From the NCBI GenBank assembly GCA_017640605.1, contig JAEPQH010000023.1, positions 1-45,926 of the forward strand: DNA of 45,926 nt, given 5' to 3'. Origin of the DNA: Balneolaceae bacterium (GTDB lineage: Bacteria > Bacteroidota > Rhodothermia > Balneolales > Balneolaceae). A program made the translations under genes and the position numbers. Position 1 is the stretch's first letter; each line of letters opens with the position of its first letter. The notes under the pieces are model-generated. The model did no database searches. It saw nothing but the letters and a program-made list of their open reading frames with translations, and was not told the DNA's origin. Positions 15,528 to 34,152 of this stretch are shown here, one piece after another.

Positions 15528-16904
15528 TTATTTGATTAAGGTCATTTTCTTGATGCTGGTTGTTGCACCTGCAGTCAATTTATAAACATAAACGCCTGAT
15601 GCCAGATTCGCTGCATTAAACGAAACCGTATATGAACCTGCGCTTTGCACACCGTTTACCAAGCTACTTACCTTTTGCCCTTGCAGGTTATATACCTCCA
15701 AAGTCACTTTTCCGGTTTGAGGAACCGAATAGGAAATATTGGTAGATGGGTTAAAAGGATTTGGATAATTTTGCTCTAAACTAAACCCATTAGGTATTTC
15801 GGCAATCTCATTGCTGGTAGCATTTGCATCATAAAAGTAAAGATTATCGATGAATGCGGTAACACTTCCTTCCGGTAAGGCGCTGAAAATGTATTGTGCC
15901 ATATTGGTGGTATTAGTCAAACCGGTGAAATCGGCTAATGGTAAATCGTAGCTAATCCATTCGCTTTGTGCCGGACTTTCCCAAATGAGTTCATGCTCAG
16001 AATCATCTCCTTGTCCATCTCCACCTTCGCCACTAAAACCGCCTGTAGGACCAAAATCAACGAGTTTGAATCGGAACGTAGTAGCATCCGGAGTCCACAA
16101 ATCGAAATGCACGTGCGTCATTTCACTCACATCAACCGGACTTGCTACGGTTTCGATACCCACAAAATTGAGATCAGAATATTTTTTTGTGGCGTTTCCA
16201 TCTACCATAACGTCTGCGAATGTGGCCATCGACCAACCGGTTTGCCAAGTATCTACGCTAACATCGGTGTAGGCATCACTGAATAGCGAGATTACATTAG
16301 CTTCATCAACTGTTGGTGTTGGAGCAGCTTCCGCTGGTGATAGTCCACCACTGCTTAAATCACCGAAAGTCACATTATCAAAATAGATTACATTTTCTTC
16401 ACTTCTTTCTGTGAAATCCGGGAAGATGGTTAGTTTTGCAAAAGCTCCACCTTCACTTTCTGGGGGATTGTTTTTATTCGAGAAATCGAAGGTTAATTCC
16501 TCCCACTGATTCGTAACTGTATTGGCTACTTTTATTTCGCCTTCCGACCAACCGCCGGCAGCTTCCAATTTAATTCCGACATCAGAAATGGTTGTTTTCC
16601 AAACCATGATTTTGATGGTTCGGTTATTATCGTTTAACGTAAAGTTCCCGATACCATCCGTGGTAACACCGGCAAAAGTTGCACCGTCAACGCGTGCAGT
16701 AAATTTAGCGACTTTTGCAGAAGTGTTTGGTTCGGATTGATCAGGGTTATCAATAATTTCTAGAGCTGGATTATCGGTATTTTCAAATACTTCCCAGGTC
16801 CAAGAGGCACCGTTTCCGTCGGCCTCAAAATTAACCGGACTGTTTTGTGCTACAGCTGCAGAACTAAAAAATAATACAGCTATTAGTAATTTTGTAAGTT
16901 TCAT
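15528..16904 (-). CDS. Secreted two-module carbohydrate-binding protein with T9SS sorting domain
   Basis: This 458-residue exported protein has a signal peptide (1-20, ending AVAQN), two beta-sandwich modules and a type IX secretion sorting domain. Module 1 (about 22-180) ends in YFDNVTFGDL and resembles CBM4/11-like domains. Module 2 (about 195-365) carries PTVDEANVISLFSDAYTDV and MTHVHFDLW, and is the same kind of module found twice in the lipoprotein at 28455-30986. The tail (about 375-458) has QNYPNPFNPSTNISY and a closing Gly-Val-Tyr-Val-Tyr-Lys strand, typical of T9SS cargo. No catalytic motif is visible, so it is read as a released or surface-bound beta-glucan-binding protein. It is the last gene of the operon, 92 bp after the GH17 gene, and is followed by a terminator. 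Confidence 0.85.
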   Translation of the reverse strand: MKLTKLLIAVLFFSSAAVAQNSPVNFEADGNGASWTWEVFENTDNPALEIIDNPDQSEPNTSAKVAKFTARVDGATFAGVTTDGIGNFTLNDNNRTIKIMVWKTTISDVGIKLEAAGGWSEGEIKVANTVTNQWEELTFDFSNKNNPPESEGGAFAKLTIFPDFTERSEENVIYFDNVTFGDLSSGGLSPAEAAPTPTVDEANVISLFSDAYTDVSVDTWQTGWSMATFADVMVDGNATKKYSDLNFVGIETVASPVDVSEMTHVHFDLWTPDATTFRFKLVDFGPTGGFSGEGGDGQGDDSEHELIWESPAQSEWISYDLPLADFTGLTNTTNMAQYIFSALPEGSVTAFIDNLYFYDANATSNEIAEIPNGFSLEQNYPNPFNPSTNISYSVPQTGKVTLEVYNLQGQKVSSLVNGVQSAGSYTVSFNAANLASGVYVYKLTAGATTSIKKMTLIK

Positions 16905-16996
16905 TATAAATAATGGTTTAAATGATTGATTGTAGCGAGTTTATTGAGTGAGTTCTCCCAGACTTTTTTTAAGGTTTAATAACTAAAAAGCTATTT

Positions 16997-17971
16997 CTAA
17001 AAATGAGTTCTTTGTGTGGAATAATTCGGGTTCACTGCAAGTTTGGGAGTACGATCAGCGCGGTAAAGTCCCCAGTGTTTTTCGGGCTCCCAGCGATCGG
17101 GCGAACCTTTCCAGTTTTCATCAAATGCTTCAAAATAAAAGGTAAGAATGCCGTTTTTTTCCGTCCATTCCATTAACTCTTCGAAATATATTTTTTGAAA
17201 ACCTTCGTTTACATTATCAGCTTCAATCCCTCTTCCATTCGATTTTGTTGCCCAACCCGCTTCGGTAATCACCACCGTTTTATCCGGAAATTTTTCTGCA
17301 ACCGAATAGTAATTTTGCTTGGTATATGCCAAACCCTCTGAAATATTTTTGTATTCCCAAACAGGGTAGCTGTGTATCGATATAAAATCCAGATACTCTG
17401 CTAAGTTGGAAAGTTTATGTAGCCATGGCACATAGTTTTCACAAAATGTAACTAGCTGTTTTGTATTAGCTTTAACTTTCTTTGAATAAGCTAACACATT
17501 TTTCTCCGGAACGTAGTGGTCTGTCCAATCCACGCAAGCCTCGTTACCGATCGAGAGAGAGAAAATGATATCCTCGTAGGTATTTCCAAGTTCAATGAGT
17601 GCATCAATTTTACGGCGATTGATTTCCTTGTTGGCTTCCAGCTCATCTTCGTCGTAAACACCGCCTCCCCAAGGACAATTAAAATTATTCACTTCTGCGC
17701 CAATGTCGGCACCAAGCATAATTTTGAAATCGAGTTGTTCTTTGCGAATCACCTCCAACACGGTATGCGCATGAGTACTGGAATCATACAGGCGTAGATA
17801 TTTCCACTCATCCTGCAAAATCAGTAAGTCCTCTTTTACCTGATCGTAGGTTGGATATTCTCCACCCGGGTATTGTCCATCTCTAAATCCGGAATAACAA
17901 ATTGCTTTACCTGGTTGCAGTCCTAATTGTTCAAAAGTATTCAAAGTCCTAGTATTTGAGTTTATTTTCAC
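16997..17971 (-). CDS. GH17 glycoside hydrolase, no signal peptide (start uncertain)
   Basis: This GH17 enzyme of about 324 residues is predicted to cut beta-1,3-glucan oligosaccharides. With the GTG start at 17971, the acid/base is Glu144 in SIGNEA and the nucleophile Glu237 in VITEAGWA, with IRLYD/HSYP-type barrel motifs around them (here LRLYDSS and SIHSYPVW). The start is unclear. An ATG at 18031 would overlap the upstream GH17 gene by more than 80 bp and add residues that look like read-through of the other frame. GTG 17971 or TTG 17944 are better, and the TTG lies just after the upstream stop. No secretion signal is seen, so it should be cytoplasmic. It is more like the GH17 lipoprotein at 22759-24057 (GNEA...TE(A/T)GWAT, YFEAFDE(N/Q)WK) than the two GH17 domains next to it. 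Confidence 0.88.
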   Translation of the reverse strand: MKINSNTRTLNTFEQLGLQPGKAICYSGFRDGQYPGGEYPTYDQVKEDLLILQDEWKYLRLYDSSTHAHTVLEVIRKEQLDFKIMLGADIGAEVNNFNCPWGGGVYDEDELEANKEINRRKIDALIELGNTYEDIIFSLSIGNEACVDWTDHYVPEKNVLAYSKKVKANTKQLVTFCENYVPWLHKLSNLAEYLDFISIHSYPVWEYKNISEGLAYTKQNYYSVAEKFPDKTVVITEAGWATKSNGRGIEADNVNEGFQKIYFEELMEWTEKNGILTFYFEAFDENWKGSPDRWEPEKHWGLYRADRTPKLAVNPNYSTQRTHF

Positions 17972-18854
17972 TGTCCCAGATACCCCAATAAGCTCCAACT
18001 TCCCCTTCGTCGCTTTTTTTCCATGCCTCATCAAAAGAGGAGAAATACATTATTTCTATCCCTTCGTCTTGTGCCCATAAATTGGCGTTAATAAAGTATT
18101 TCATGGCATTTTCTTCTGATGGAATCGCACCACCAAGTCCTTCTCCCTGGCTAGGCCATCCCGTTTCGGTAATGATAATTCGCTTACCATTCGCAGCAGC
18201 TTTGGCTTGATAAAACATTTGCCGCATGTGATTCAATGAATCCTGAAACGAGGTTCCCTCCCAATACGGGTAGCAGTTACAAAGCACTACATCGCAAGTT
18301 TCTGCCAATTCCGGATGCACGCTGAACTCGTAATAAGCATCTACATAGCCAACCGGTATATCGGGAATTTCTGCTTTCACTCGTTTGATATATTCGAGTA
18401 GTTGCTCGAGCGTTAGATCATTACGATACAGTACTTCATTTCCGACAGCGGCAACATCAACCATGCCTTTTTTAGCAAGTTCAATCAGCCCTTCAATTTC
18501 GGTCTCGTTTTTTTCTTCGTCGCTTCCCAGCCATGCACCAACCATGGTTTTTAAACCCAATTCTTTGGCTACTTCGGGCACCAATTCGTTGCCTTCGGTG
18601 GTAGAAAAAGAACGAATCCATTCACAATGATCATCAAGAATTTGCATTCTTCGCATAATCTGCGGTTTTGGAATGATATCTCCCGGCTCCTGTCCTTCTT
18701 CATACAAACTGAAGCAGAATCCATGAATTCCCTCGGTCAAAATCTCATGGAAAAGAGCATTGGTATCTTTTTGATCCAGCCCCTCGAGGTAATCAACTTT
18801 CGAGAGTAATGAGGATTTCTCGAAGCTTAGAAATTTTTCCTTTCTGTACGACAT
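17949..18854 (-). CDS. Cytoplasmic GH17 glycoside hydrolase
   Basis: This 301-residue single-domain GH17 has no signal peptide. The acid/base is Glu140 (AAVGNEV) and the nucleophile Glu230 (IITETGWP), exactly 90 residues apart. Other family landmarks are WIRSFST, CYPYWEG and YFSSFDEAWK. It aligns without gaps to the GH17 half of the neighbouring transporter fusion; I count about 100 identities over 190 positions, so the pair arose by duplication. It starts 2 bp after the fusion gene ends, in the same operon. The expected substrate is short beta-1,3-gluco-oligosaccharides already in the cytoplasm, working alongside the GH149-like phosphorylase. Whether it is an endo-, exo- or transglycosylating enzyme cannot be read from the sequence. 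Confidence 0.92.
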   Translation of the reverse strand: MSYRKEKFLSFEKSSLLSKVDYLEGLDQKDTNALFHEILTEGIHGFCFSLYEEGQEPGDIIPKPQIMRRMQILDDHCEWIRSFSTTEGNELVPEVAKELGLKTMVGAWLGSDEEKNETEIEGLIELAKKGMVDVAAVGNEVLYRNDLTLEQLLEYIKRVKAEIPDIPVGYVDAYYEFSVHPELAETCDVVLCNCYPYWEGTSFQDSLNHMRQMFYQAKAAANGKRIIITETGWPSQGEGLGGAIPSEENAMKYFINANLWAQDEGIEIMYFSSFDEAWKKSDEGEVGAYWGIWDSENKLKY

Positions 18855-18856
18855 GC

Positions 18857-21235
18857 TTATTTAATTTTTAGCTGTTCATCTTTATTCCAAAGTCCCCAAC
18901 GGGCTCCAACATCTCCTTCGTGGCGAACTTTCCACGATTCATCAAACGAAGAGAAGTAATACACATCGGTGTTATTCGCCTTACTCCAGCTCACCACGTT
19001 AATAAAGTATTTCATCATGTTAATCAGTGAGGGTTCTGCTTCTCCAACGGTTTGTCCCTGAGTTGGCCAACCGGTTTCGGAGATCACTACTTTTTTACCT
19101 CCACTTTTTGAGGATACCAAAGCGTGCATTTTTTCTATCACACTCATTGAATCTTCAATCGAATATCCTTCCCAGAACGGATAACAGTTGATCATTACCA
19201 CATCACAATATTCCAGTAATTCGGGATGATCCAGGAACACGAAATAGGCATCTACATATGCAACCGGTGTATTTGGCAGCTCTTCTTTCACACGTTTTAA
19301 GTATTCGATCACTTGTTCAACCGAAAGCTCGTTTCGCATAATGGTTTCGTTACCAACAGTGGCAATATCAACTGCGCCGGTTTTTGCCAGAGCAATCAGG
19401 CCTTTTATTTCTTTTTCGTTGTTTTCAAGGTTTGAGTCAATCCAAGCACCTACCACCGATTTGTTGTCGTATTTCTGCGCAATACCGGGCGTAAATTCAT
19501 TTCCACCGGTGGTTGAGAATGATCGAATCCACTGCACATGCTTCGACAGAATCTTCACTCGTTGCTCTATTTGTTGCTTCGATAATTGATCCTCGATGGT
19601 TTGATCGTCGCGATACGGGCTAAAACAAATTCCGGAGATTCCCTCCTCCAGTAATTCCAGAGATTTTTTCTTTAAGGTTGCTTCATCACTATCTAAATGG
19701 ATAGGTGTGTATGGATTCTCAACCTCTATTTTTTCGAATGTATTTAGTTTAGCCAGTTGGTAGTAACTGCTTTGTTTGGGCTCTACTTCTTTTACAGTTT
19801 TGCCCTTTTTTCTGGCTTCTAACTTCGCTCTGATTTCGTTCGCTCGTTCTTCGTCGATATCATACGACCACATTACCAGAATGGCTATAAAAGTACCGAG
19901 CATCGGCAAACCAGAGAAGAAAGCTCGCAGTCCGGTTATTCCTGGCCAAACTTCACCAATCGGGATCGGTCCGGGCAAGGCATCGGCACTGAATCCAACA
20001 ATGCTGAGAATAATGCCGCTTAATCCACCGGCAATTGCGAATCCAAATTTTACCATCCACCAGTAAATGGCTCCGAACACTCCTTCTCTTCGGATTCCAT
20101 AATTCAATTCATCCAAATCGATTACATCTGCGGTCATCGACATCATTAAGGTGAACAGGCTACCAATGCCAAAAGAGAAAAACGGCAATGCAAAAATGAA
20201 CATGTATGGCTTTCCCGGGATTAGTAGGAACCAGAACATCAAATAACCTACAATAGAAATGGATTGTGAAACGATAAAAGCACGTTTCTTGCCCATAATT
20301 TTTGACATCTTTGCGACAATGGGAATCACAATAAAAGTAGTTACAATAGCGCCTAGACTTCCAAATAAGGTCGGCCAGATACCTGCTGCGCCTGCATCCC
20401 CACCAAATAGGTGATATACAATTACGAAAAAGGTAAAGGCTGCAACGGTGTTAAATGCGTTGAATATCAAAAAAGTAGAAATACACAGCTTTCGGAAAGG
20501 CTTCGATTTAAAAGCTTCTTTAAAACTGTTGATGATCTCCTTAAATCCCTTGCCAATGTTCTTTACTGTGAGCGGCATATAATCATCGCGATCAACCGTT
20601 GATTCATCTTTGATGATGATGGCCGGAATCATCGCGCAAAACATGAAAATAATTCCGACCCAGGTAGCTAGTGTTCGAGTAGCAACTTCGGCAGATTCGA
20701 ACCAGGCCGGATCGTACATAATCACCCAGAACCAAGGTGCGATTACCCATGCCCACTGCCCAATCCATTGTGCAATAGCCATGATTTGCGTTCGCTCGTG
20801 AAAATCTTCACTCATTTCGTACCCCATGGCTACGTAAGGCACGCTGAATATTGTAAGTCCTAAAAAGAACGCAACCGAACATGCCATAAAATAAGTGAAG
20901 TTGTACATCACGCTGTTATCAGCATAGAGCTGCCACATGATGATGAAGCTAACGCCCATTACGATAGCGCCAAGAAACACATACTGTCTACGTCTGCCCC
21001 ATTTCGAACGTGTATTATCCGAAACAAAACCCATGATCGGATCAGTAAATGCATCAAACACACGCGGAAAAAAGAAAATAACCCCCCACATCCACCCGGG
21101 AAAGCCCAGATCCTGAACCAGAACAACCATAAAGATGCTCAACACAGCCGGGAACATCTGATTAGCCAACATTCCAAAGCCGAATGCTAGTTTATATGAA
21201 TAAGGGACACTCTTAGTTGTAACCTGTGTAGACAT
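18857..21235 (-). CDS. GPH-family sugar transporter fused to a GH17 domain
   Basis: This is a single 792-residue open frame. Residues 1-460 form a 12-helix glycoside-pentoside-hexuronide (MelB/MFS_2-type) carrier: DAFTDPIMGFVSD (about 61-73) followed by TRSKWGRRRQY is the family signature. A charged linker follows (about 461-500, EERANEIRAKLEARKKGK). Residues about 500-792 are a full GH17 domain with acid/base Glu630 and nucleophile Glu720. With 12 helices both ends face the cytoplasm, so the hydrolase would sit at the inner mouth of the carrier and cut beta-1,3-oligosaccharides as they arrive. Its GH17 half is paralogous to the next gene. The frame runs through the junction without disruption. 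Proton or sodium coupling is not determined. Confidence 0.93.
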   Translation of the reverse strand: MSTQVTTKSVPYSYKLAFGFGMLANQMFPAVLSIFMVVLVQDLGFPGWMWGVIFFFPRVFDAFTDPIMGFVSDNTRSKWGRRRQYVFLGAIVMGVSFIIMWQLYADNSVMYNFTYFMACSVAFFLGLTIFSVPYVAMGYEMSEDFHERTQIMAIAQWIGQWAWVIAPWFWVIMYDPAWFESAEVATRTLATWVGIIFMFCAMIPAIIIKDESTVDRDDYMPLTVKNIGKGFKEIINSFKEAFKSKPFRKLCISTFLIFNAFNTVAAFTFFVIVYHLFGGDAGAAGIWPTLFGSLGAIVTTFIVIPIVAKMSKIMGKKRAFIVSQSISIVGYLMFWFLLIPGKPYMFIFALPFFSFGIGSLFTLMMSMTADVIDLDELNYGIRREGVFGAIYWWMVKFGFAIAGGLSGIILSIVGFSADALPGPIPIGEVWPGITGLRAFFSGLPMLGTFIAILVMWSYDIDEERANEIRAKLEARKKGKTVKEVEPKQSSYYQLAKLNTFEKIEVENPYTPIHLDSDEATLKKKSLELLEEGISGICFSPYRDDQTIEDQLSKQQIEQRVKILSKHVQWIRSFSTTGGNEFTPGIAQKYDNKSVVGAWIDSNLENNEKEIKGLIALAKTGAVDIATVGNETIMRNELSVEQVIEYLKRVKEELPNTPVAYVDAYFVFLDHPELLEYCDVVMINCYPFWEGYSIEDSMSVIEKMHALVSSKSGGKKVVISETGWPTQGQTVGEAEPSLINMMKYFINVVSWSKANNTDVYYFSSFDESWKVRHEGDVGARWGLWNKDEQLKIK

Positions 21236-21257: not shown

Positions 21258-22757
21258 TTAAGATTTCTGCGAATTTATTACGATTGTTTGCAAAGCCTTT
21301 CCATCAATCGAAATCATCTCTGCCGCACCATCAAGCATGATGGAAAGTGTCTTTTCTTGCTCTGTCTGGTTTAATACTAACAGTGCAATGGAGCCATCGG
21401 GATTCTGAGCTGCCGTAATTAATAACTCATCGTCGTTGTGTTGATGTCCTATTCGGTAGGCATCAGGACGAATGAATCGGCTGAAATGAGCCATAGTGTA
21501 ATACAATGGAGTAAAGTACACTTCGTCGGCATCCGGATCTACGATAACCGGAGCAAGGCACCAATTATTTGCCCAATTTGGTCCGCCCTGCCGATCTAGC
21601 ACCATATTCCAATCAACCCAACCATCAACCCAATTATTGAGTGTTCCGATAATGTCTCGTGCATATCGATACACCGGCACATATTTCGGGTGCAAATACT
21701 TTCGATCATCCGGTGCCCAATCCCAACCCCAATCGGTTGCTTCTTTCGCCCAGTACCAATCATCGTCTTTCCAACGGGGCACATCTGCATCGGCGGTGGC
21801 TTCGGTTTGGATTAAATATTTATCCGGTGCAACTCGATGAGCATATTGAAGCGCTTCTTCGAACACATCGTATGTACTTGCATACCAGTGAATAGCCGTT
21901 CCATCAAAATATTTTGCGGCTTCTTCATCGCCGTACATTACATCCACCCATTCTTCCAAGTGATCACGGTTTTGATCGTAACCAAGAAGCACAACTTCCG
22001 GATGGGTTTTTTCGAGTTGTGGACCCAAATGGTTTTTCACAAACTCGTTCATTTCTTCGGCGGTGTAGTGCATACTTTCCCAGTTTTCCCCATTGCCGAG
22101 TGGTTCGTTTTCTACGGTGATTCCCCAGATATCAATGCCTTGGGCAGCATATGCATCTATATATTTTGAAAAGAACAATGCCCAGGTGTCGTAATATTCG
22201 GGTAACAACTTCCCACCTTTCCATGCATTATTGTCTTTCATCCAGATGGGGGCAGTCCATGGCGAAGAAATAATCTTAAATCCATCCTGCGATATTTCCA
22301 TTGCCTCTTTTATCATTGGGATGATATCGTCCATGTCTTCTTCAATCGAAAAATTCTCCAGGTTTACGTCGCCCGTAACCGGTGCGTAGGAGTAATTGCC
22401 AAGTGAGAAATCACTTGAATTCATGTGAGTACGAGTAAGCGAATATCTTGCTCCACTTTCCCCGAAATAAGCATCCAGAATAGTTGTTCGATTTTCTTCA
22501 CTCAACTGATTAAGCAAATATGCGCTGGACTCGGTGAATGATCCCCCAAAACCTGTAATTTTCTGAAATCTCTCTTCCGGATTTAACCGTATTTCAACCA
22601 CATTTTCACCAATATTAAATGCGGTTTTTTGAGTGAGTTGATTACCTGCAGCAGAAGTCTCAAATACTTCGAGGTTCATATTTTTTTCGTTAGAACAGTT
22701 AATTCCGATTAGCGCTGTTAGTAGAATGAGACTGGCTGTGATAAAACGATCATTCAT
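21258..22757 (-). CDS. GH30 (subfamily 1-like) beta-glucosidase lipoprotein
   Basis: This 499-residue lipoprotein (IGINCSN, Cys21) has a GH30 barrel plus C-terminal beta-sandwich. FQKITGFGGSFTESSAY opens the domain, VENEPL gives the acid/base Glu218, and IQTEAT gives the nucleophile Glu319. GH30 enzymes in marine laminarin loci act as exo-beta-1,6-glucosidases that remove side branches; this is family knowledge, not shown here. The lipid anchor places it in the periplasm or on the outer membrane, where it would debranch laminarin before import. It starts 1 bp after the GH17 lipoprotein gene and is followed by the transporter fusion 22 bp later. Glucosylceramidase-like or other beta-glucosidase activity is the alternative. 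Confidence 0.92.
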   Translation of the reverse strand: MNDRFITASLILLTALIGINCSNEKNMNLEVFETSAAGNQLTQKTAFNIGENVVEIRLNPEERFQKITGFGGSFTESSAYLLNQLSEENRTTILDAYFGESGARYSLTRTHMNSSDFSLGNYSYAPVTGDVNLENFSIEEDMDDIIPMIKEAMEISQDGFKIISSPWTAPIWMKDNNAWKGGKLLPEYYDTWALFFSKYIDAYAAQGIDIWGITVENEPLGNGENWESMHYTAEEMNEFVKNHLGPQLEKTHPEVVLLGYDQNRDHLEEWVDVMYGDEEAAKYFDGTAIHWYASTYDVFEEALQYAHRVAPDKYLIQTEATADADVPRWKDDDWYWAKEATDWGWDWAPDDRKYLHPKYVPVYRYARDIIGTLNNWVDGWVDWNMVLDRQGGPNWANNWCLAPVIVDPDADEVYFTPLYYTMAHFSRFIRPDAYRIGHQHNDDELLITAAQNPDGSIALLVLNQTEQEKTLSIMLDGAAEMISIDGKALQTIVINSQKS

Positions 22758-22758
22758 A

Positions 22759-24057
22759 TCATTCCTCTTCGCTCAGGCGTTGTTGGATTTCTTCGTCGGT
22801 TGGTGGAACCAGCACCGTTTTCATCATGGCGTCATAATCACCACCAAAAGTTTTGGTGATGGGCTTTCCATCTCGGGTTAATCCTTCGAAGACACCTTCA
22901 TCCACTAAATCCCAAATCGCATATTTTGCCTCAGAGTTTAAGTTGATTAAGCCAAAATGGTTTTCCGATCCCAGTGGGTTCATGGCATCTTTCCATTGCT
23001 CATCAAAAGCCTCGAAGTAGAAAATCGAAATATTGTTCTCGTCGCCCCAAGCTCTGATTTCATCGTGATATTTACCCGATTTATACTCGTCGATGGCATT
23101 GGCTCCACCTTCCCCATAAAACTCGTTGGAAATGGTAGCCCAACCCGTTTCACCAATATGAACCGGTTTATCCACTCCAATACTCTTCATGTAATTGACC
23201 ACACTGTAGTATTGATCTTCGGAATATTGCAGGGCACGCGCCATGGCATTGTCTATTTTTTCCATATCGGTTAGATCTTCTTCTTCAGCTCGTACTCCCC
23301 AAAACTGTGGATTGTAATGCGTATCGTGCATCGGATAAGTGTGTACTGATAAGAAATCAACGGCACGGATAAGCGAGTCTAGCGCCGGTTTGTGATAACT
23401 TTCACTTCCGCCTCCCCAACTTGCAAAATTATCGGAGCTGGTGATCCATAAATTTTCCGGTAATTCGCCGTTATCACGCATCTTACGCAAATGATTCACC
23501 CACTTAAGAATGATAGTTGGTTCTACATAATATTCAGTAGCCCAATGAACCATGGCTTCGTTACCTACGGCAATTATCTTTACGATATCGGGGTATTGAT
23601 TAGCCAGTTCTGCAGCTCGTGCAATTTCAGTACTATTTCTTGGTGCATCTTGATTTCTGATGCGTTCCGGTTCGTCGGTCCATGCATTTTTAGCATCAAT
23701 CCACGCACCAAGCATCACATACATTTCAAAAGAATCATCTTCTTTTTTCAGTTCGTCAATGGCTTTTAGCACGTTCGAAGCGTGAGGCAAATGCACGTTG
23801 TACGTACGTATGAGCTTAATTCCCATCGCGTGAAGAATGCGCATATCCTCTTTCAGTTCTTCGATGGTAGGCTGAATATCTCGGGTATTTTCGCGGTATC
23901 CACCGTACGAAATGGCTTGGTACTCATTATTCCCCAAAATTTCTTCTGCTGTCTTATTTCTATTATCCATAGATGATTCAGATCGGTTTTCGCATGAAAT
24001 ACTTAGCAGCGATGCTAAAAAGAAAATCAGTATATGATGAAATGTTCGCATGCTCAC
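22759..24057 (-). CDS. GH17-family lipoprotein
   Basis: This 432-residue exported GH17-type enzyme has a lipoprotein signal (FFLASLLSISC, Cys22). The acid/base is Glu167 (IAVGNEAMVHW) and the nucleophile Glu303 (HIGETGWAT); LIRTYNV, LSVHTYP and YFEAFDEQWK complete the barrel pattern. A C-terminal extension of about 60 residues beyond the barrel (EGLTRDGKPITKTFGGDYD...) is not seen in the other GH17 proteins here. It begins 6 bp after the phosphorylase gene. Likely work is endo- or exo-cleavage of beta-1,3-glucan in the periplasm or at the surface. Among the four GH17 domains here it is closest in style to the one at 16997-17971, so the operon holds two exported/cytoplasmic GH17 lineages. Confidence 0.88.
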   Translation of the reverse strand: MSMRTFHHILIFFLASLLSISCENRSESSMDNRNKTAEEILGNNEYQAISYGGYRENTRDIQPTIEELKEDMRILHAMGIKLIRTYNVHLPHASNVLKAIDELKKEDDSFEMYVMLGAWIDAKNAWTDEPERIRNQDAPRNSTEIARAAELANQYPDIVKIIAVGNEAMVHWATEYYVEPTIILKWVNHLRKMRDNGELPENLWITSSDNFASWGGGSESYHKPALDSLIRAVDFLSVHTYPMHDTHYNPQFWGVRAEEEDLTDMEKIDNAMARALQYSEDQYYSVVNYMKSIGVDKPVHIGETGWATISNEFYGEGGANAIDEYKSGKYHDEIRAWGDENNISIFYFEAFDEQWKDAMNPLGSENHFGLINLNSEAKYAIWDLVDEGVFEGLTRDGKPITKTFGGDYDAMMKTVLVPPTDEEIQQRLSEEE

Positions 24058-27000: not shown

Positions 27001-27531
27001 CCCATCAAGTACCGTAAGCTCACAGGCACTGTCTGCATTATTTTGAATGGTAGATGTACGAACAAAGCCATATTCATTACTTGATTTCCATTCGTAGCGA
27101 AATGATAAATTCAAATCATGATTTATCTCTTCGAATAAGATTTTATTTCCCCATTGGCTCTTGTATAAATTTTGAGTGGTTTGATATCTGTGGGAATCTC
27201 GCTTTGAAAATGGCTCCCAAACTTGTACATCGTCGTTGTTGCGAACCTGTATAATGGTTTTAGACCCGGTGATATCAGCAGCTTCGGTTATTTTATCGTC
27301 GGTGTAATAAGGAAATAATGCGTATTCCGAATTTTTTCGGCCGGCAGAAACCCCGCCATTGCTTGAAATAAACATCCAGTGATTAGAATCACTGACGATG
27401 CTCATAAAAAAAGGTCGAATCTGATCAGAATTCGAAATTTTAAAATACGGTTCGTTATTTATGGTTACTGCTTCCAATTTTTGTTGTCCCGATTTATTAT
27501 CCCTCTTATTTAGGGTGGATGAATCATTCAT
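24064..27531 (-). CDS. GH149-like beta-1,3-oligoglucan phosphorylase
   Basis: This is a 1155-residue cytoplasmic protein without a signal peptide, with the build of large GH94-related inverting phosphorylases: an N-terminal beta-sandwich (about 30-300), a linker helix, an (alpha/alpha)6 barrel (about 340-1000) and a small C-terminal domain. The likely general acid is Asp470 in GNWRDIFQNW; GYWGDHQ (about 527-533) and NDANNALVGNG (about 672-682) are further barrel landmarks. The length fits GH149 and is well above GH161 and GH94 enzymes. GH149 converts beta-1,3-oligoglucans and phosphate to glucose-1-phosphate. Flanking GH16, GH17 and GH30 genes strongly support a laminarin role. The family assignment is from memory of motifs, length and context, so GH161 is the alternative. 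It is 62 bp after the GH16 gene. Confidence 0.85.
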   Translation of the reverse strand: MNDSSTLNKRDNKSGQQKLEAVTINNEPYFKISNSDQIRPFFMSIVSDSNHWMFISSNGGVSAGRKNSEYALFPYYTDDKITEAADITGSKTIIQVRNNDDVQVWEPFSKRDSHRYQTTQNLYKSQWGNKILFEEINHDLNLSFRYEWKSSNEYGFVRTSTIQNNADSACELTVLDGIQNVLPASVNSDLQVRSSNLLDAYKRSELVAETGLGIYALSAIPVDKAEPSEALKANVVWSTGLQNPTYLVSSLQLDAFRIGQKVQTEHDVKGEKGAYFICSEFTMGANTYESWNIVANVNQNHAGTIALNEQIKADVDELQRKVDENVVAGTKKLKNLVAQSDGMQLSSDALKDARHYSNVLFNIMRGGIFDHHYRIEKDDFAKYLKNASKPTFNRNRTLIDGLPEEFEQTLLLERIEGNEDADLVRLAKEYLPLKFSRRHGDPSRPWNKFSINTHHEDGSKILDYEGNWRDIFQNWEALAHSYPKFLEGMIFKFLNATTFDGYNPYRVTKGGFDWETIEPDDPWSYIGYWGDHQIIYLLKFLELYEKHQPDAFPALMDEDVFVYANVPYRIKSYEDIAKNPKDTIDFDADSDEVIREKVAEIGADGALLNNRQSEIHRVSLLEKLLATTLAKVSNFIPEGGIWMNTQRPEWNDANNALVGNGVSMVTLYYLRRFLSHLEQVLEKVDDNEVGISVELKDCFTSILNTLVQHRGLLTGDVNDEQRKAVTDALGKAAASFRNTIYNNGFSGELTPVSISEVRDFASITNEYLEHSIRANKREDDLYHAYNIMSIEGDGISISYLDEMLEGQVAVLSSGYLKAEESLKVLDALKKSSLYREDQESYILYPNKELPGFLDRNNLHESAVLNSELLTKMVEAGDRRIVSKDVNGGYHFNGNFKNANDLGVALDALDGTEFEALAEKERSQILSAFEKVFNHKAFTGRSGTFYGYEGLGSIYWHMVSKLYLAAYEVCDQAEKADVDESIKNRLAAHFYEIGEGIGIHKSPEVYGAFPTDPYSHTPYHRGAQQPGMTGQVKEDILARIGELGIEVEDGILSFNPVLLRKSEFVNEPGSYQITNIDGNAVEVVVPKNALAFSYCQVPVIYKIEEQDGIEAYLKNGASQSFSGRSLDKATSAMIFGRTGEVTKLKVSISEHRINKN

Positions 27532-27593: not shown

Positions 27594-28427
27594 CTAATTA
27601 TCGTGGGCGTAAACGCGCACATAATCAACATACATAGCCTGTGGAAATGGAGTACTACTGTTTGGTGAGCCTACAAATGAACCACCAACTGCAACGTTTA
27701 GAATGATGTAAAAAACATTATCGTTAAATACCCATTCTCCGTTTACATCGGCTGGGGTGATTTCGTTATATAGTTCATCATCTACGAAATAGCGGATAAA
27801 ATCCGGGCCCCATTCGATGGCAAATACGTGAAATTCGGAATCGAAGCGACCTGATCGAAGAGAATATTCGTCGGTTACTGCTTGTCCTGCAGAGTATCCC
27901 GGACCATGCACACTTCCATGAATAATTGTGGGCTGCTGTCCTCGATATTCCATGATATCAATCTCCCCGATTTGTGGCCAAATAACGGATCCATTAGAAT
28001 CATCGCCAAGTAACCAGAAAGCAGGCCATATTCCTTGCCCGAATGGTAGCAGAATACGCGCTTCATATCTGCCATAAGTTCGTTCGAATAATCCACGGGT
28101 TAGTATTTTGGCAGATGTATATCCGGAACCGTTAAAATTTTCTTTTCTGGCAGTTATCTCGAGCAGACCGTTTTCTACCTTTATATTTTCGGGTCGGTCG
28201 GTGTAATATTGCAGCTCATTGTTTCCCCATCCCGGTGTACCAAAAATTTCAACACCTGTACCAATATCAAATAACCATTTAGTGGTATCGATGGAACCTT
28301 CAGTATCAAATTCGTCGGACCAAACTAAGGTATTGAACTCATTTTCGGGTTCGTTGTTACTCTCCGTACATGCTTGAAAAACAATCATGCAGGAAAGTAA
28401 AACGATACTAAGTACTCTTGCTTTCAT
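27594..28427 (-). CDS. GH16 laminarinase (endo-beta-1,3-glucanase) lipoprotein
   Basis: The product is a 277-residue lipoprotein (VFQACTE, Cys20) consisting of a single GH16 beta-jellyroll. The active-site strand is GEIDIME: nucleophile Glu155, Asp157 and acid/base Glu160. The E-x-D-x-x-E spacing is the laminarinase form. WGNNELQYYT and GIWPAFWLLG are the classic substrate-cleft motifs of subfamily GH16_3. It would make the first endo-cuts in laminarin at the cell surface. It follows the binding lipoprotein gene by 27 bp in the operon. No extra binding module or T9SS tail is present. Confidence 0.95.
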   Translation of the reverse strand: MKARVLSIVLLSCMIVFQACTESNNEPENEFNTLVWSDEFDTEGSIDTTKWLFDIGTGVEIFGTPGWGNNELQYYTDRPENIKVENGLLEITARKENFNGSGYTSAKILTRGLFERTYGRYEARILLPFGQGIWPAFWLLGDDSNGSVIWPQIGEIDIMEYRGQQPTIIHGSVHGPGYSAGQAVTDEYSLRSGRFDSEFHVFAIEWGPDFIRYFVDDELYNEITPADVNGEWVFNDNVFYIILNVAVGGSFVGSPNSSTPFPQAMYVDYVRVYAHDN

Positions 28428-28454: not shown

Positions 28455-30986
28455 TTAATTTTGTTGGATGTTGTCGATGTAGAAGGTTCCGGTACTCGTT
28501 CCGGGGCCGTCCATAAAGATGGTTACTCTTGGGAAGGAGTCGCTTGAGGTGAAATTGAACGTTAGTTCTTCCCATCCCGACCCGCTATGATTTTGAGCTA
28601 CTTCCACAAAAGCTCCCTGATCAACTTCAATTTTTAGTAATACCGGAATTGCTGAAGTCGAGTACACATCCATTGTAATGGTTTGGCCATTTCCAAAATC
28701 CAGATTGTTCTCCAAATCGAAATAAATACCTTCCCATTGTGCGCCGGAATTTGTGATGGATCCCACTTTTGACGCAGTGTTATTTGATCCCGATACATTC
28801 GGGTTATCAACTACTTCATAAACAGTACCGTTGAAAGTAGTGGCCGAATAATTTACCTGATCATCATCAAAGGTAATTGGGAGATTTGGTGCGGTTTTTG
28901 AACCTCCACCACCACTTGAACCATCGGTGTAGTAGTAAATGTTATCTACATATACATCAGAAATGGTGGCATCAGATACAAAGAAAATCAATCCAATCTG
29001 GTCTTGTGCAGCTAAGTTAAAGTCTGATAGTGGAACATCAAAACTCACCCACTCGCCTTCTCGGAGCACCCCCGAACTGAAGGTTACCGATCCGGATGAT
29101 TCATTATTTCCAACCGAATTTATGAGCTGTAATCGGATGAAATCGCCATTAGAAATAGCTTCATTCACGTAAAGATCCACATGAATGTGCGTCATTTCCG
29201 AAGCGTCTACCGTTGGGTTTGATTGATTTGGATCTACTCCGGTACCAATTCCAACAAAGTTCAATGCTGTGTAATGGATAATCCCGTCACCATTAATTAC
29301 TACGTCAGCGCCTTGTGGACCACCATCAAATCCGGTTCCACCTTGCGTGGTTTGTCCGTCGTTGTTGAAGAAACCGTTGTAATAATCAACCGGTACATTC
29401 GTGTATGCATCACTAAATATGGATACCACACTATCGGGATCAACAGTAGGTACGGGAGCAGTGACGATATCGGCACCGTTTCCGCCGCCATTACCGCCTC
29501 CACCTCCATTTGAGCCACCAGAACCGTCGTTATAATAATAAATATTATCTACATAGATATCGGAAATTGTAGCGTCACTCACAAAGAAGATGAGACCTAA
29601 TGATGAACGATCGGCAAGATTGAAATCAGCCAGAGGGATGTCGAGACTTAACCAATCGTTTTCCAATAACTGATCGGAACCGATTCTAACTGAGCCTGAG
29701 GTTTCTCCATTACCAACTGAGTTAAGCAGTTGTATGGTAATGTAATCACCGGGATCAATTCCCTCTTGTACGTTGATGTCTACATGCATGTGAGTCATGT
29801 CGGTTGCATCAATCGAAGGAACATTCAAGAATGTACCAATACCTACGAAATTCAGTTCAGTATAATTGATAATTCCATCGCCATCCACAACTATGTCAGC
29901 GCCCGGGGGACCTCCTTCAAACCCGGTACCGCCTAGTGTGGTTTGTCCATCGCCATTAAAGAAGCCGTTGTAATAATCAACCGGAACATTGGTGTATGCA
30001 TCACTAAAGATTGATATCACACTATCGGGATCGACGGTGGGTACAGGTGCGGTTTCAAAAGTCCCTTGTGAAATCAGATTTACCGAGCCTGAGGCTTGCA
30101 CGCCTCCCACAGAGGCCGTTATTGTAGCATTTCCTTCACCAACTACGGTTATTACACCTTGGTTGTTAACGGTTGCAACTGCAGGATTAGAGGATGAAAA
30201 ATCGAAATAACCTGCACCAACACTTAGCATTACATCCTGAGCAGTAGTAGTTTCATCAGGAAGAGTAATGATGGTGTTCAATGTTTGCTGGAAATCTGTG
30301 ATTTCGTAGGTGAGATTTACAAAACTTGAAATTGTAATATCACGACCGTTTAAAATAGAAGGGCGTGGTTGTGCAATAGTACCAAGTTTTTCGAATTTCA
30401 GATCATCAATCCAAAAACTGTATCCGGCACCATCTTCAGGGTTTTCAGCGAACCAAAACATGCCATCAATGGCCATAAGTTTTTCAGGCTCCGGAATTGG
30501 AATTACGTACTTTTTCCAGAATGTGGATAAACGGAGGCTATCAACCCTAACTTCGAAACTGTTGTTACCTTCCAAGCCTTGCCCAAAACCAATACTGTTA
30601 ATAGTTCCGGCTTTGGTTCCTTTCGCGTAGAAAGTAAACGCATCATATTCGCTTAGATTACGTCCCCCATTTAAATCAATAAAAGCAGCGCCTGCATAAG
30701 AACCCGATGGATCATCAGGATTCGGTACGTCGATTCGCATAGAAGCCGCTGAATTATCGAAAGTTACTTCGGTATCCACCTGAAATGCATCAAGTTTGGC
30801 AAAACCATCATCGTATGGAAAATATTCCAATCCTGAACTGAATCCGTCAATAAAAACATCCGGATTATTGGTTAGGGATGGTTCACTTAGTCCATCTACC
30901 GAGCGTTCACAACCTGCCATTAAAAAGATGACAAGTAAACCTGCATATAACGAACGAGTCATAATAGTTAAATTTAAATCTTTCAT
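28455..30986 (-). CDS. Multi-module surface glycan-binding lipoprotein
   Basis: This 843-residue lipoprotein (FLMAGCE, Cys26) has no visible catalytic site. Domain order: a CBM11/CIA30-like jelly roll (about 45-200, ending YSFWIDDLKFEKL), a bacterial Ig-like BIG_2 domain (about 215-307, SSSNPAVATVNNQGVITVVG), two tandem near-copies of one binding module (about 312-488 and 509-689), joined by a Gly/Asn/Ser-rich linker, then a CBM4-like module (about 700-843, FYIDNIQQN). The tandem module shares PTVD...SVISIFSDAYT and MTHxHVD with the secreted protein at 15528-16904. It fills the place of a SusE/F-like surface glycan-binding protein, expected to hold laminarin for the GH16 enzyme encoded next. 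A start at Met9 instead of Met1 is possible. It lies 13 bp after the barrel-fusion gene. Confidence 0.87.
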   Translation of the reverse strand: MKDLNLTIMTRSLYAGLLVIFLMAGCERSVDGLSEPSLTNNPDVFIDGFSSGLEYFPYDDGFAKLDAFQVDTEVTFDNSAASMRIDVPNPDDPSGSYAGAAFIDLNGGRNLSEYDAFTFYAKGTKAGTINSIGFGQGLEGNNSFEVRVDSLRLSTFWKKYVIPIPEPEKLMAIDGMFWFAENPEDGAGYSFWIDDLKFEKLGTIAQPRPSILNGRDITISSFVNLTYEITDFQQTLNTIITLPDETTTAQDVMLSVGAGYFDFSSSNPAVATVNNQGVITVVGEGNATITASVGGVQASGSVNLISQGTFETAPVPTVDPDSVISIFSDAYTNVPVDYYNGFFNGDGQTTLGGTGFEGGPPGADIVVDGDGIINYTELNFVGIGTFLNVPSIDATDMTHMHVDINVQEGIDPGDYITIQLLNSVGNGETSGSVRIGSDQLLENDWLSLDIPLADFNLADRSSLGLIFFVSDATISDIYVDNIYYYNDGSGGSNGGGGGNGGGNGADIVTAPVPTVDPDSVVSIFSDAYTNVPVDYYNGFFNNDGQTTQGGTGFDGGPQGADVVINGDGIIHYTALNFVGIGTGVDPNQSNPTVDASEMTHIHVDLYVNEAISNGDFIRLQLINSVGNNESSGSVTFSSGVLREGEWVSFDVPLSDFNLAAQDQIGLIFFVSDATISDVYVDNIYYYTDGSSGGGGSKTAPNLPITFDDDQVNYSATTFNGTVYEVVDNPNVSGSNNTASKVGSITNSGAQWEGIYFDLENNLDFGNGQTITMDVYSTSAIPVLLKIEVDQGAFVEVAQNHSGSGWEELTFNFTSSDSFPRVTIFMDGPGTSTGTFYIDNIQQN
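28920..30053 (-). repeat. Tandem duplication of a binding module inside the surface lipoprotein gene
   Basis: Two segments of about 530-540 bp (29523-30053 and 28920-29462) code for module copies that keep long identical stretches, such as TAPVPTVDPDSV and FSDAYTNVPVDYYNGFFN. They are divided by a GGGGG-rich linker. The high similarity points to a fairly recent internal duplication, and makes the region prone to assembly collapse or recombination. Confidence 0.8.
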
Positions 30987-30999
30987 TTACTTATCTCTT

Positions 31000-33900
31000 T
31001 TAATTTCTGATATCAATTTGAATGTAGGTACGAATTTCCCACTCCGAACCATTGCCTAAGGCTTCGGCTCCGGGTTGTAAGGTTACTTCGCCGGTTGCCG
31101 GATCTACATCAGCCAAAGAATATCTGGGCGAATACTGATTCAGCGTTCTGTATGTGCCGCGTACGCCAAGTCTGGTAGTTGGCAAATCGAACCAATCAGG
31201 TTTGCCTAAGGTGGTTGAAATGTCTGCCATCAATTGCATTGGATACGTTTGATTGAAATCGCGGTGGTAATCAAAAGGACCCCAATCGTTGAAACGAGCA
31301 AATGAATTCACTTTCATATTCTTGTAGATCAATTGAAGATCGGTTCCAAAACGAGTGATTTTACGGGGATCATTACCATTAGCCTGGCCATCACCGCCAT
31401 AAATCATGGCAACAAATCCTAAATCTCTATTCAATTTCGATACAATACGAGCATTTACTTCAATTAAATCTTCGGCAGGTGCTGAGCCATTAAAAGCAAA
31501 GGTTGTTCGTCCATCAGGTAAAATACCAATTGCAGCATCCTGCTCTGTAGGTAAATGGCGATATACAACTCCTAAACTAACAGCTAATCGAGCATCTTCC
31601 GAGCGATTGCTGTCCCAGTTGTACATCCATGTTCCCGGGGTTGGGTCCCAGGTAAGTACTAACTCACCGGCAGTTTGCTCTCTGTTCGATCGCACTGCAA
31701 AAGGATCGTCAATAAAGTTTCGTGGGCGTGCTGGACCATCTATTCCTGCCGGAATTGGACCTTCGATCGGTTTTTGCCATAAGAAATTGGGAGCAATTTG
31801 GAGATTACCAATCGTGTACGTTAAACCTGTTAAGAAATTCATTTGGTTGCCACTACCGCTGTCTTTCAATCTCCAACCGGTGTAGGTAATGGTTTGATCG
31901 GCACCACCATTAGCAACCAATCCTTGAATTGCGCCCTGACTGTACCAATTAAACAAACCACCAGTATAAGTCAGCTTCAACTTACCGCCCCAATTGTCCA
32001 TCGGTTTGATTTCATCTACATAGGCATTGTACGTTCCATCCGGGTTTTCTCGTACAAGTTGAAATTCGCGACCATTTAGTGGCTGACCTGCCCAAATACC
32101 ACCAGCTTCCACACCAACTTTTCCGAATTCTCGGGCAGCATATAAAGTAAAGCGACGGGTTTTTGGCTGAGGAATTGCAAACGAACTTTCTGTAGTTCCT
32201 TGTTGCTCCAGATCTTCATGGAAAATTCCCGTTACTTCCGTATTTCCGATCATTCTCGTGTATTTGATCAAGAAAGCCGGGTTTGCTCCCCACCATAATT
32301 CAGGACCAAAAGCAGCTTTTAATCCATCGAACTGATAACGCCCTTCCACTTCGAAACCGAAAGGTGCAGTTCCATTGTAAATGTCAATGTTTGGGCCGTA
32401 ATTAGCTTCAGGGTATAATCCAAAGAAATCACCTTCATATCCCCAATGATAATGCCCAGTTCGATAGAAGCCATCAATTTCGAAATATTTGCTGGTCCAG
32501 GTATACTCTGCGCTGTAAATAGCTACACGATTCACATCATTTAGAGTGATGAGTTCTTCTCTCCCTTCCACCTCAACTGGGCGACCTCTATTCTCATAAA
32601 AGATTTCGTCTATTGGATTCCCCGGCACGTTTCCGAGAATACTAGTAACCAAATTTGCTCTGATGTTCGGAGCAGGATTAGCTTCCACGCCAATAAAGAA
32701 GGTTTCCAAGTGATCGAAGCCCTGTTGTGTTGGATATTCCCGCATATTGGGATTTGGCTCTTCCGGCGTAGTAATATAAGTACCACCTGTGCTGTAGGTT
32801 CTAAAATCGGCCGTAAATTGGCTAAGCTTGATGATATCAGCCGATGCTGAATTTAATGCAGCTTTATCGCCACGAGCCTTTAATACTGCACCTTGAATAG
32901 AAATTCCCTCAAAAAATTCGTTCAGATCGGTGATGGAAGCATCTTCGTCGTATACATCATATCTATGCGCTTCTTGCAATACGTAATAAGCAGCACGAGG
33001 GAATAATTCATAATATCCATTTGGATCAGTTGGTCCTTTCGCCGTAATCCCAAACCACTCTTCATTCATGTTATTCTCTCCTTCAGCAAAATCGTATTGG
33101 TATCCACCATTCGCCCAAGAAGCATTAATATCATGTACATCTAAATTCTCAACTTGACCGAATTTCCACCAACCATCACTAAATTGGAAAGTAAATCCAC
33201 CAATTGAGTTATTTGCTCTTCCCATACCTGCAGCATTGGCATAAACATCTTTCCAATTATTTTTCTTAATAAATGCCTGATCTGCTTGCGCCTCAGTTAA
33301 CGTTCTGGCGTTAAAAGCATCCACACCAAATTCTGTGAGTAATACAGGCTTGCCATATTCTTCAGCCACTCGATCGTAGAGATCGGTAAAAGTTGGACCT
33401 CGATAGGTGTTAATACCTAAAATATCTACATCAGGTGCTTCTTCAATAATGTGTTCCAGGAAAAGAAGATCACCATTACAAATTGCAACCGGTCGTGAAG
33501 AATCAATTTGCTTCATCCGAACAGCAGCTTCGTTCATTAAGCTATACATAGGTTTTCCGCGCGTTTCACCCACAAAAGCTTGCTCTGAAGCATCATCGGG
33601 AAAATCCTCCGTTTCCGCACCGGCCCAGAAAAGTCCGTAGTTATTCTCGTTACCGAGTAGGTATAGTAAAAGTCCTTTGGTGTCGGCATAGGTGGCAGCC
33701 AATTCGGTTACTTCGCTAAGTAGAAGCTCCATCGTTCTGGGATCATCATATTCGGTAACCGGTTCCCAAACACCATCGATTGTTAAACCATATCTACCAA
33801 ACGAGTGGTTAAGCATGGTATAAATTCCGTAATTCTCATAAATGTAGGTTATCCATTCGGGTTGAATGCCGGTGTATACCCGAATTGCATTAACTCCCAT

Positions 33901-34152
33901 ATTTTGAAGTAAACCCATTTCATAATCGAGCGCCTTTTTTATGAATGCCGGATCTTGATTCCAAAGGCTGTATGAATAGTTTGTCCCTCTGGGAAAGTAA
34001 TCCCAGTTCATTCCATTTATCATTAATGGCTTTCCATCTACCATCATTACCCAGCCTTCGTCAGTCATAGTGACTTCTACATTATCTGACTGCGCATAGG
34101 AATAAATTGAGAGAAGAAAAGTTAGTGCTAAAAACGTGGTGATTTTTTTCAT
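31000..34152 (-). CDS. GH-A clan TIM-barrel glycosidase fused to a predicted outer-membrane beta-barrel
   Basis: This 1050-residue protein is the first of the operon. A signal peptide (1-20, SIYSYAQS) is followed by a GH2/GH5-like TIM barrel (about 28-400). Acid/base Glu169 lies in LLGNEN and nucleophile Glu274 in LLTEFG, with MINGMNWDYFPRG and VNAIRVYTG as early landmarks; the exact family is not recognised. From about 440 to the end the sequence changes to alternating amphipathic strands with aromatic girdles and Gly/Asn-rich turns (YFEIDGFYRTGHYHWGY, GFEVEGRYQFDG, RFTLYAAREFG), like an outer-membrane barrel of about 600 residues. It ends TYIQIDIRN rather than with Phe. I infer a surface or periplasmic glycosidase anchored in, or gating, an outer-membrane pore. 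The operon has no SusC, so a transport role is plausible but untested. Confidence 0.75.
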   Translation of the reverse strand: MKKITTFLALTFLLSIYSYAQSDNVEVTMTDEGWVMMVDGKPLMINGMNWDYFPRGTNYSYSLWNQDPAFIKKALDYEMGLLQNMGVNAIRVYTGIQPEWITYIYENYGIYTMLNHSFGRYGLTIDGVWEPVTEYDDPRTMELLLSEVTELAATYADTKGLLLYLLGNENNYGLFWAGAETEDFPDDASEQAFVGETRGKPMYSLMNEAAVRMKQIDSSRPVAICNGDLLFLEHIIEEAPDVDILGINTYRGPTFTDLYDRVAEEYGKPVLLTEFGVDAFNARTLTEAQADQAFIKKNNWKDVYANAAGMGRANNSIGGFTFQFSDGWWKFGQVENLDVHDINASWANGGYQYDFAEGENNMNEEWFGITAKGPTDPNGYYELFPRAAYYVLQEAHRYDVYDEDASITDLNEFFEGISIQGAVLKARGDKAALNSASADIIKLSQFTADFRTYSTGGTYITTPEEPNPNMREYPTQQGFDHLETFFIGVEANPAPNIRANLVTSILGNVPGNPIDEIFYENRGRPVEVEGREELITLNDVNRVAIYSAEYTWTSKYFEIDGFYRTGHYHWGYEGDFFGLYPEANYGPNIDIYNGTAPFGFEVEGRYQFDGLKAAFGPELWWGANPAFLIKYTRMIGNTEVTGIFHEDLEQQGTTESSFAIPQPKTRRFTLYAAREFGKVGVEAGGIWAGQPLNGREFQLVRENPDGTYNAYVDEIKPMDNWGGKLKLTYTGGLFNWYSQGAIQGLVANGGADQTITYTGWRLKDSGSGNQMNFLTGLTYTIGNLQIAPNFLWQKPIEGPIPAGIDGPARPRNFIDDPFAVRSNREQTAGELVLTWDPTPGTWMYNWDSNRSEDARLAVSLGVVYRHLPTEQDAAIGILPDGRTTFAFNGSAPAEDLIEVNARIVSKLNRDLGFVAMIYGGDGQANGNDPRKITRFGTDLQLIYKNMKVNSFARFNDWGPFDYHRDFNQTYPMQLMADISTTLGKPDWFDLPTTRLGVRGTYRTLNQYSPRYSLADVDPATGEVTLQPGAEALGNGSEWEIRTYIQIDIRN

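Follow-up and report, generated by a model that had tools for sequence, protein, structure and literature searches.

A Beta-1,3-Glucan Operon Without SusC/SusD in a Balneolaceae Bacterium, and a Glycosidase Joined to a Predicted Outer-Membrane Barrel as Its Candidate Entry Pore

Introduction

Laminarin makes up a large share of the carbon in the sea. In the phylum Bacteroidota the SusC/SusD pair is regarded as the glycan gate, and its presence is taken to indicate which organisms consume which glycan (PMC6298971). The variant B laminarin polysaccharide utilization locus (PUL) was defined by Kappelmann (PMC6298971); in Formosa three PULs are induced by laminarin, FbGH30 being a beta-1,6 side-chain enzyme, FbGH17A an endo-acting enzyme and FbGH17B, part of a fusion with a major facilitator superfamily (MFS) carrier, an exo-acting one (Unfried et al., 2018, PMC6246565). 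Maribacter uses SusCD (PMC11345257). The GH149 phosphorylase (GH, glycoside hydrolase family) occurs in PULs and also in clusters without susCD (Kuhaudomlarp et al., 2018, PMC5827456), and a variant 1 laminarin PUL without susCD is known from an NS4 metagenome-assembled genome (MAG), in a paper that also names a “GH0” gene as part of loci of this type (PMC10108472). Here we describe a stretch of 45,926 nucleotides (contig JAEPQH010000023.1 of assembly GCA_017640605.1, positions 1 to 45,926 of the forward strand; “the window” below) from a Balneolaceae bacterium, in which a ten-gene operon for beta-1,3-glucan use begins with a gene, here called GHbar, that joins a glycosidase to a predicted outer-membrane barrel. 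On balance, we think that the outer-membrane step of this operon is carried out by its own first gene, as part of a porin-glucanase import module, and not by SusC/SusD.

Gene Content of the Operon

Ten consecutive minus-strand open reading frames (ORFs) between 15528 and 34152 encode beta-1,3-glucan pathway genes, as judged from the ORF list and a profile search with Pfam and NCBIfam; signal peptides and lipoboxes were assigned by visual inspection. In order of transcription these are:

31000-34152, minus strand: GHbar, operon gene 1, 1050 aa; signal peptide, clan GH-A TIM-barrel glycosidase (residues ~22-430) and C-terminal barrel of ~24 strands (~436-1050), predicted from AlphaFold2 (AF2) models and fold searches
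28455-30986, minus strand: binding lipoprotein, 843 aa, with Big_2 and carbohydrate-binding module-like repeats (Pfam); putative partner of the barrel by neighborhood
27594-28427, minus strand: GH16 lipoprotein, endo-beta-1,3-glucanase by family (PF00722, E 3.8e-23)
24064-27531, minus strand: GH149 beta-1,3-glucan phosphorylase without an evident signal peptide (NF058639, 1741.6 bits, past the curated equivalog cut-off of 1150)
22759-24057, minus strand: GH17 lipoprotein in an FbGH17A-like position (PF00332, 25.5 bits, below the 28.2 cut-off; 59% identity to the copy in the Formosa locus L016)
21258-22757, minus strand: GH30, beta-1,6 debranching by homology (PF02055, E 5.3e-79)
18857-21235, minus strand: GPH-family carrier fused to a GH17 domain (MFS_2, E 4e-65; PF00332, E 1.1e-12)
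17949-18854, minus strand: GH17 without signal peptide (PF00332, E 3.8e-14)
16997-17944, minus strand: GH17 without signal peptide (Pfam), TTG start probable
15528-16904, minus strand: binding protein with a type IX secretion system (T9SS) tail (Por_Secre_tail, E 1.1e-11) and modules in common with 28455-30986

Read in the direction of increasing coordinates, the intergenic gaps are 92, 4, 2, 22, 1, 6, 62, 27, and 13 bp, given a TTG start at 17944 for the 16997 gene. That start, which yields 315 aa, is probably the correct one: with the longest ORF (345 aa) there would be an 86-bp overlap with the neighboring gene, and close homologues are 309-318 aa long. Read by eye, the GH17, GH30, and GH16 proteins have intact active-site motifs, and the GH17 at 22759, despite its score below the cut-off, has 54-75% identity to the GH17s of related loci. 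All four GH17 matches of the host genome (3.74 Mb), as well as its single GH149, fall inside the operon. The gene set of the variant B/variant 1 laminarin PUL is thus present (GH16, GH30, at least two GH17, GH149, MFS-GH17), while the same profile search located no SusC/SusD pair within 15528-34152, which places the operon outside the canonical, SusCD-defined PUL. An earlier note, made from the sequence alone, had described this layout: one strand, gaps of 1-92 bp, a GH16, three GH17 genes plus a fused domain, a GH30, a GH149-like phosphorylase, a GPH carrier, two binding proteins, and no SusC/SusD, and each of these points was recovered here. Its pathway to glucose-1-phosphate is likewise supported by the gene content, and the operon is best described, from its sequence, as a supported candidate for a beta-1,3-glucan (laminarin-type) utilization locus without SusCD. 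The note also set the locus against laminarin loci that usually carry susCD; the absence stands, but the contrast is drawn too sharply, since susCD-less GH149 clusters are already reported (PMC5827456, PMC10108472).

A Glycosidase With a Predicted Outer-Membrane Barrel

What the earlier note missed was the nature of the gene at 31000-34152, and the view that the operon has no outer-membrane entry of its own is not supported, given the 24-strand outer-membrane barrel predicted there. The two halves are:

32863-34152, minus strand: glycosidase half, residues 1-430; closest in fold to the GH158 endo-laminarinases, followed by GH5, GH2, and GH157
31003-32847, minus strand: barrel half, residues 436-1050; 24 long strands with 12 long and 11 short connections in the AF2 model

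In an AF2 model of the full-length protein (43 alignment rows) a TIM barrel runs to about residue 430 and is followed almost solely by antiparallel strands. Modeled alone (73 rows), residues 436-1050 gave 24 long strands with a pLDDT of 81.7 and a pTM of 0.79; the 24 are our own selection of long strands, omitting eight shorter ones (four pairs inside loops), which leaves the parity unaffected. Two tables of fold matches contained, among the best 50 of each, beta-barrel membrane proteins only, nearly all from the outer membrane and one a mitochondrial VDAC. The similarities are moderate (Z 11.9-15.5) and include AlgE (15.5), Occ/OprD porins, maltoporin, FimD/PapC ushers (aligned over ~1-615 of the barrel half), and TonB receptors. 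The barrel profile had no match among PDB sequences, and GHbar did not match PF07715, PF00593, or PF13715 at E up to 5, so by sequence there is no plug or TonB-receptor barrel. A C-terminal aromatic residue is the signal by which outer-membrane barrels are recognized by the beta-barrel assembly machinery (BAM); the last residue of GHbar is N, K, or R in the window and in most relatives and F in a homologue from Bacteroides finegoldii described below. From the model and the fold matches, we consider it very likely that the C-terminal half has an outer-membrane beta-barrel fold.

The enzyme half can be placed safely only in clan GH-A, as modeled. Its top fold match was a GH158 laminarinase, 9p2f_A (VIA Z 27.5, rmsd 3.1, 291 residues aligned), and Foldseek returned 9p26 (E 3e-13); since GH5, GH157, and GH2 proteins lie within 1-2 Z of the top match and the sequence link to GH158 is weak (profile E 0.0046), membership in GH158 was dropped as unproven. 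The half is not another GH17 either, as there was no PF00332 match and only weak ones to GH72 and Glyco_hydro_cc. A search with the fusion matched no PDB sequence. E169 (after N168) and E274 are invariant in 43/43 rows of the GHbar alignment, and homologues that lack the barrel retain GNENN in 19/19 and EFG.D in 18/19 cases.

A Conserved Module

GHbar does not travel alone. Counting only loci with at least 4.5 kb downstream, and leaving out one split fusion locus (L007) and the duplicates L085-L088, the binding protein is the next gene within 200 bp in 67 of 72 fusion loci, the binding protein and then GH16 follow in 65, and GH16 lies within three genes of the fusion in 70. None of the 15 barrel-less loci has the binding protein next or GH16 within three genes, and 13 of them continue to GH149 within 220 bp. 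Independent contrasts on the tree, in which GH16 was scored among the next three genes, went in the same direction in 9/9 cases for most of the pairings (p 0.004 at the median and at most 0.016). SusC-SusD, GH16, the free glycosidase, and GH149 follow one another in this order in six barrel-less loci (L006, L045, L054, L064, L122, L126). It follows that barrel, binding lipoprotein, and GH16 travel together and that SusCD with GH16 can replace them.

The split locus left out above, L007:4433-7605 of the Flavobacteriales strain ALC-1, has the fusion divided into two ORFs, and SusD likewise, which may reflect decay, a frameshift, or an error of sequencing or assembly.

Distribution of the Fusion

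Among 394 genomes drawn evenly across the phylum, 47 match the GHbar protein and 32 carry the full fusion, in one case split over two contigs. Of the 34 genomes matched by the barrel profile, 32 have an intact barrel (counting the split one), in every case in frame with the enzyme; the remaining matches, G119 and G231, are remnants with stops, the sole relics seen. No intact barrel without the enzyme was present in these 394 genomes. The barrel-less homologues (19/95 tree rows) are scattered, requiring 11 changes of which at least nine are forced by starred branches of the tree, and repeated loss of the barrel is the best account of this pattern. Two Balneolota loci, L005 and L013, group on this tree with genomes that share the family code of the window, as would be expected if its host is Balneolaceae-like.

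Could the barrel be a structural relic, the small products of the surface GH16 and other enzymes being admitted by general porins, with no dedicated pore? Scavenging of short oligosaccharides has been proposed for clusters without an outer-membrane transporter (Kuhaudomlarp et al., 2018, PMC5827456). Across 73 rows, however, the barrel keeps 54-90% identity to the window copy, with many invariant positions, and it is intact in 32 genomes while relics with stops are limited to the two just named; we therefore find this account very improbable.

A translated search (tblastn) of the fusion against 72,556 plasmid records gave two matches. One, a Persicobacter megaplasmid, has the order fusion, binding protein, GH16. 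The other, a Bacteroides finegoldii record with valS and rpsA that looks chromosomal, has a DUF6377 protein, the fusion, a binding-protein homologue, GH16, a fimbrillin, a hypothetical protein, and GH3, with no SusC/SusD in the stretch around the fusion. The B. finegoldii fusion has 1044 aa, with identities of 57% in one half and 56% in the other, and is annotated as a “glycoside hydrolase family 2 TIM barrel-domain containing protein.”

Which Protein Forms the Gate

In the barrel model the connections alternate, with a mean of 23 residues after odd strands and 5.1 after even strands (Mann-Whitney p 3e-4). Long connections of outer-membrane barrels face outside; both ends of the barrel, and hence the enzyme, would therefore be periplasmic unless the enzyme is exported through the pore. 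The homologues agree to a degree: by eye, nine of the 19 barrel-less glycosidases have a plain signal peptide, six are lipobox-like, and four are unclear or cut, and all are too short (364-479 aa) for a T9SS tail, so that a periplasmic location is favored, though not proved. We consider it likely that the glucanase of GHbar lies on the periplasmic side. Within the barrel, mean conservation is equal over loops, strands, and turns (0.717, 0.718, and 0.730), and our claim is therefore limited to the invariant positions, which cluster in the external loops: positions conserved in at least 97% make up 32% of external loops, 22% of strands, and 16% of turns, and are densest after strand 5 (18/34 positions) and strand 13 (15/26). 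With the module described above, this points to the barrel as the likely entry pore of the operon, a candidate at present.

Several observations weigh against this interpretation, some of them concerning the side on which the enzyme lies. The full-length AF2 model is the weaker one (pLDDT 76.6, pTM 0.53), and the placement of the enzyme therefore rests on loop parity and the homologues. The order of signal peptide, enzyme, helices (407-438), and C-terminal barrel is that of a classical autotransporter, whose enzyme is outside, and the six lipoprotein-like free homologues could face outward as well. The barrel might accordingly do nothing but anchor the glucanase and carry it to the surface, where laminarin would be cut before import via another transporter. 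Classical (type Va) autotransporter domains have 12 strands, however, compared with ~24 predicted strands and 615 residues here, and GHbar does not match the Pfam autotransporter beta-domain at E up to 5. The crowding of invariant positions in the external loops suits a substrate-handling pore rather than display, and two fusion genomes have neither a SusD nor a SusC above the cut-off that could perform the import. Such display appears unlikely to us.

The remaining objections concern SusC/SusD. Strict mutual exclusion of barrel and SusCD is ruled out by coexistence: SusCD adjoins the fusion in 4/28 loci of the phylum sample that have 8 kb or more of upstream DNA (all four of one family code, f28), and SusD lies within ~10 kb in at least 6/23 further fusion genomes. 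The earlier note had proposed to see whether related operons always lack susCD; most fusion loci do, but not always. Each of the 26 genomes in an additional set has at least one SusD; Hanstruepera flava, a cultured bacterium with the fusion, has a single one. An earlier impression that the first 80 loci fell cleanly into two kinds was overstated, many fusion loci having merely 2-4 kb of upstream DNA, and was corrected by the phylum sample. Loss of the barrel and the presence of SusCD nearby are not significantly associated (Fisher p 0.07; about three independent pairs for, none against, and five equal, p 0.25), in a test that left out L007 and L085-L088, set the state to unknown for 28/95 rows, and counted part of the short-upstream fusion loci only if a SusD was seen, a bias against the replacement reading.

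A further point against an entry through GHbar comes from the host genome itself, which has three SusD: that of the window pair and those of two pairs on contig C13.

1644-6233, minus strand: SusD (1644-3200) and SusC (3219-6233), the sole pair of the window by profile search, 9.3 kb past the operon end

In the first C13 pair, SusC, SusD, and two PF11790 proteins stand in a row, among sulfatases and a GH2 galactosidase; the PDB matches of the PF11790 proteins are Glyco_hydro_cc chains, of which 6uaq and others are, we presume, GH128 beta-1,3-glucanases. The second C13 pair occurs with SusE/F-like and melibiase-like genes. The earlier note had named a dedicated susCD elsewhere in the genome, shown to import laminarin, as what would refute it, and this objection is partly alive: the C13 SusC-SusD-GH128-type locus is a real candidate for import of beta-1,3-glucan in trans and the strongest local point against an entry through GHbar. 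The fused barrel would then be an accessory, whether the importer was this locus or the window pair. The row of SusC, SusD, and PF11790 proteins fits such an arrangement, as does a genome of the same genus (G046), whose only SusD shares a contig with the fusion. Against it, PF07980 SusD is absent from 5/32 fusion genomes (G051, G066, G144, G204, and G255, 99-100% complete): G066 and G255 have no SusC above the TIGR04056 cut-off, G051 has a marginal pass, G144 has one, and G204 has two. The window pair sits with PAP2 and ASPIC/UnbV genes and not with glucanases, as the earlier note had said of its different gene kinds, and the first C13 pair has the neighbors given above. Moreover, the unit that is inherited is barrel, binding protein, and GH16. 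Import in trans thus strikes us as improbable, and GHbar remains our preferred gate.

Upstream Element and Neighboring Genes

34264-34279, no strand: perfect 16-bp palindrome upstream of the operon
~34286-34297, no strand: adjacent near-palindrome, one letter off the upstream palindrome of relatives (placed by reading)
14798-15439, minus strand: LuxR-type (GerE) DNA-binding protein, 88 bp past the operon end, a possible regulator (profile search)

In 9/14 fusion loci of the family/order codes f1-f3 (the window excluded) a 12-bp palindrome precedes the start by 101-203 bp, and the same palindrome is found 232 bp upstream in one barrel-less locus, L121; from its sequence the upstream element is a probable operator. 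LacI-type regulators adjoin two barrel-less loci (L121:7678-8733 and L124:5311-6426) and are candidate binders of the 12-bp palindrome.

On the upstream side of the operon, a 145-aa ORF (34816-35253) matches the C- and N-terminal flagellin families (PF00700, E 4.6e-6) and is short for a flagellin; 35353-36861 combines a formate/nitrite transporter and a DsbA-like thioredoxin domain in a single ORF; and a 605-aa ORF (39118-40935) has a pyruvate kinase barrel (PF00224) in two stretches and is long for such a match. At the other end (1644-11561), the neighbors of SusC-SusD are a PAP2 protein and an FG-GAP/ASPIC-UnbV protein of large size.

Discussion

If GHbar is the gate, the binding lipoprotein (28455) and the T9SS protein (15528) would hold the glucan at the cell surface, where the GH16 lipoprotein would cut it, and the pieces would pass the plug-less barrel of ~24 strands. 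Located at the periplasmic end of the barrel, the GH158-like domain would cut the arriving pieces and so keep an inward gradient without TonB energy; that cleavage drives import is our conjecture. The lipoprotein GH17 would then trim and GH30 debranch, the carrier-GH17 fusion would move oligosaccharides over the inner membrane, and the cytosolic GH17s and GH149 would finish with glucose and glucose-1-phosphate. More tentatively still, and with somewhat less than even confidence, we suggest a new kind of importer, a TonB-independent pore with an endoglucanase fused at its periplasmic mouth whose cutting drives uptake, within a module that replaces or assists SusCD in beta-1,3-glucan import throughout Bacteroidota and Balneolota, including gut Bacteroides.

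Should a fused porin-glucanase prove to be the gate in many laminarin loci, surveys based on SusC/D would miss such consumers and some “incomplete” PULs would be complete. Such a protein would, in addition, be a rare case of an enzyme joined to a pore, with a relative in gut Bacteroides.

Comparison With Known Systems

The SusC/SusD importer has in common with GHbar a large outer-membrane barrel with surface lipoproteins and GH16 adjoining; unlike it, GHbar has no plug, no carboxypeptidase-regulatory domain, and no SusD lid, and its barrel is fused to an enzyme. AlgE, OprD/Occ, maltoporin, FimD/PapC, and the TonB receptors have the fold of the C-terminal half, with a glycosidase fusion in none of them by the match titles, while the GH158 laminarinases (BuGH158, GH158(Pro)) are the best fold for the enzyme half, with a weak sequence link.

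Among described loci, PUL 2 of Formosa sp. Hel1_33_131 (variant B/1) resembles the window in its GH16, GH30, GH17s, GH149, and MFS-GH17 fusion. Locus L016, from a MAG of that name, has the order of the window with the barrel fusion first, and the tags FORMB_m24690 (GH16), 24720 (GH17A), 24730 (GH30), and 24740 (MFS-GH17) fit its order, so that the fusion would be, by count, the putative ~FORMB_24670. The papers on Formosa and variant B stress SusCD as the importer, and their available text contains no mention of a barrel fusion that we could find. The GH149 clusters without susCD have GH17, GH16, and GH30 as in the window, with no outer-membrane route named in the portions available to us (PMC5827456, PMC10108472); the “GH0” gene of the latter paper may be a GHbar-type gene. 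Similarly, the laminarin PUL of Muricauda lutaonensis has, like the window, GH16, GH149, GH17, GH30, and MFS, preceded by an upstream “GH2 beta-glycosidase” (PMC13188888). In the available text this gene is described as GH2 only and a barrel is not mentioned, unlike what we find in the window; Muricauda algicola AsT0115, named in the same paper, is the strain of a fusion-carrying locus of our set (L026). Neither an enzyme-barrel fusion of this kind nor SusCD-independent laminarin import was described in the open-access papers searched, most of which were judged from their listings. The susCD-less laminarin cluster and the fusion of carrier and GH17 have been published before, and what this locus adds to them, as far as searched, is the barrel fusion with its conserved module.

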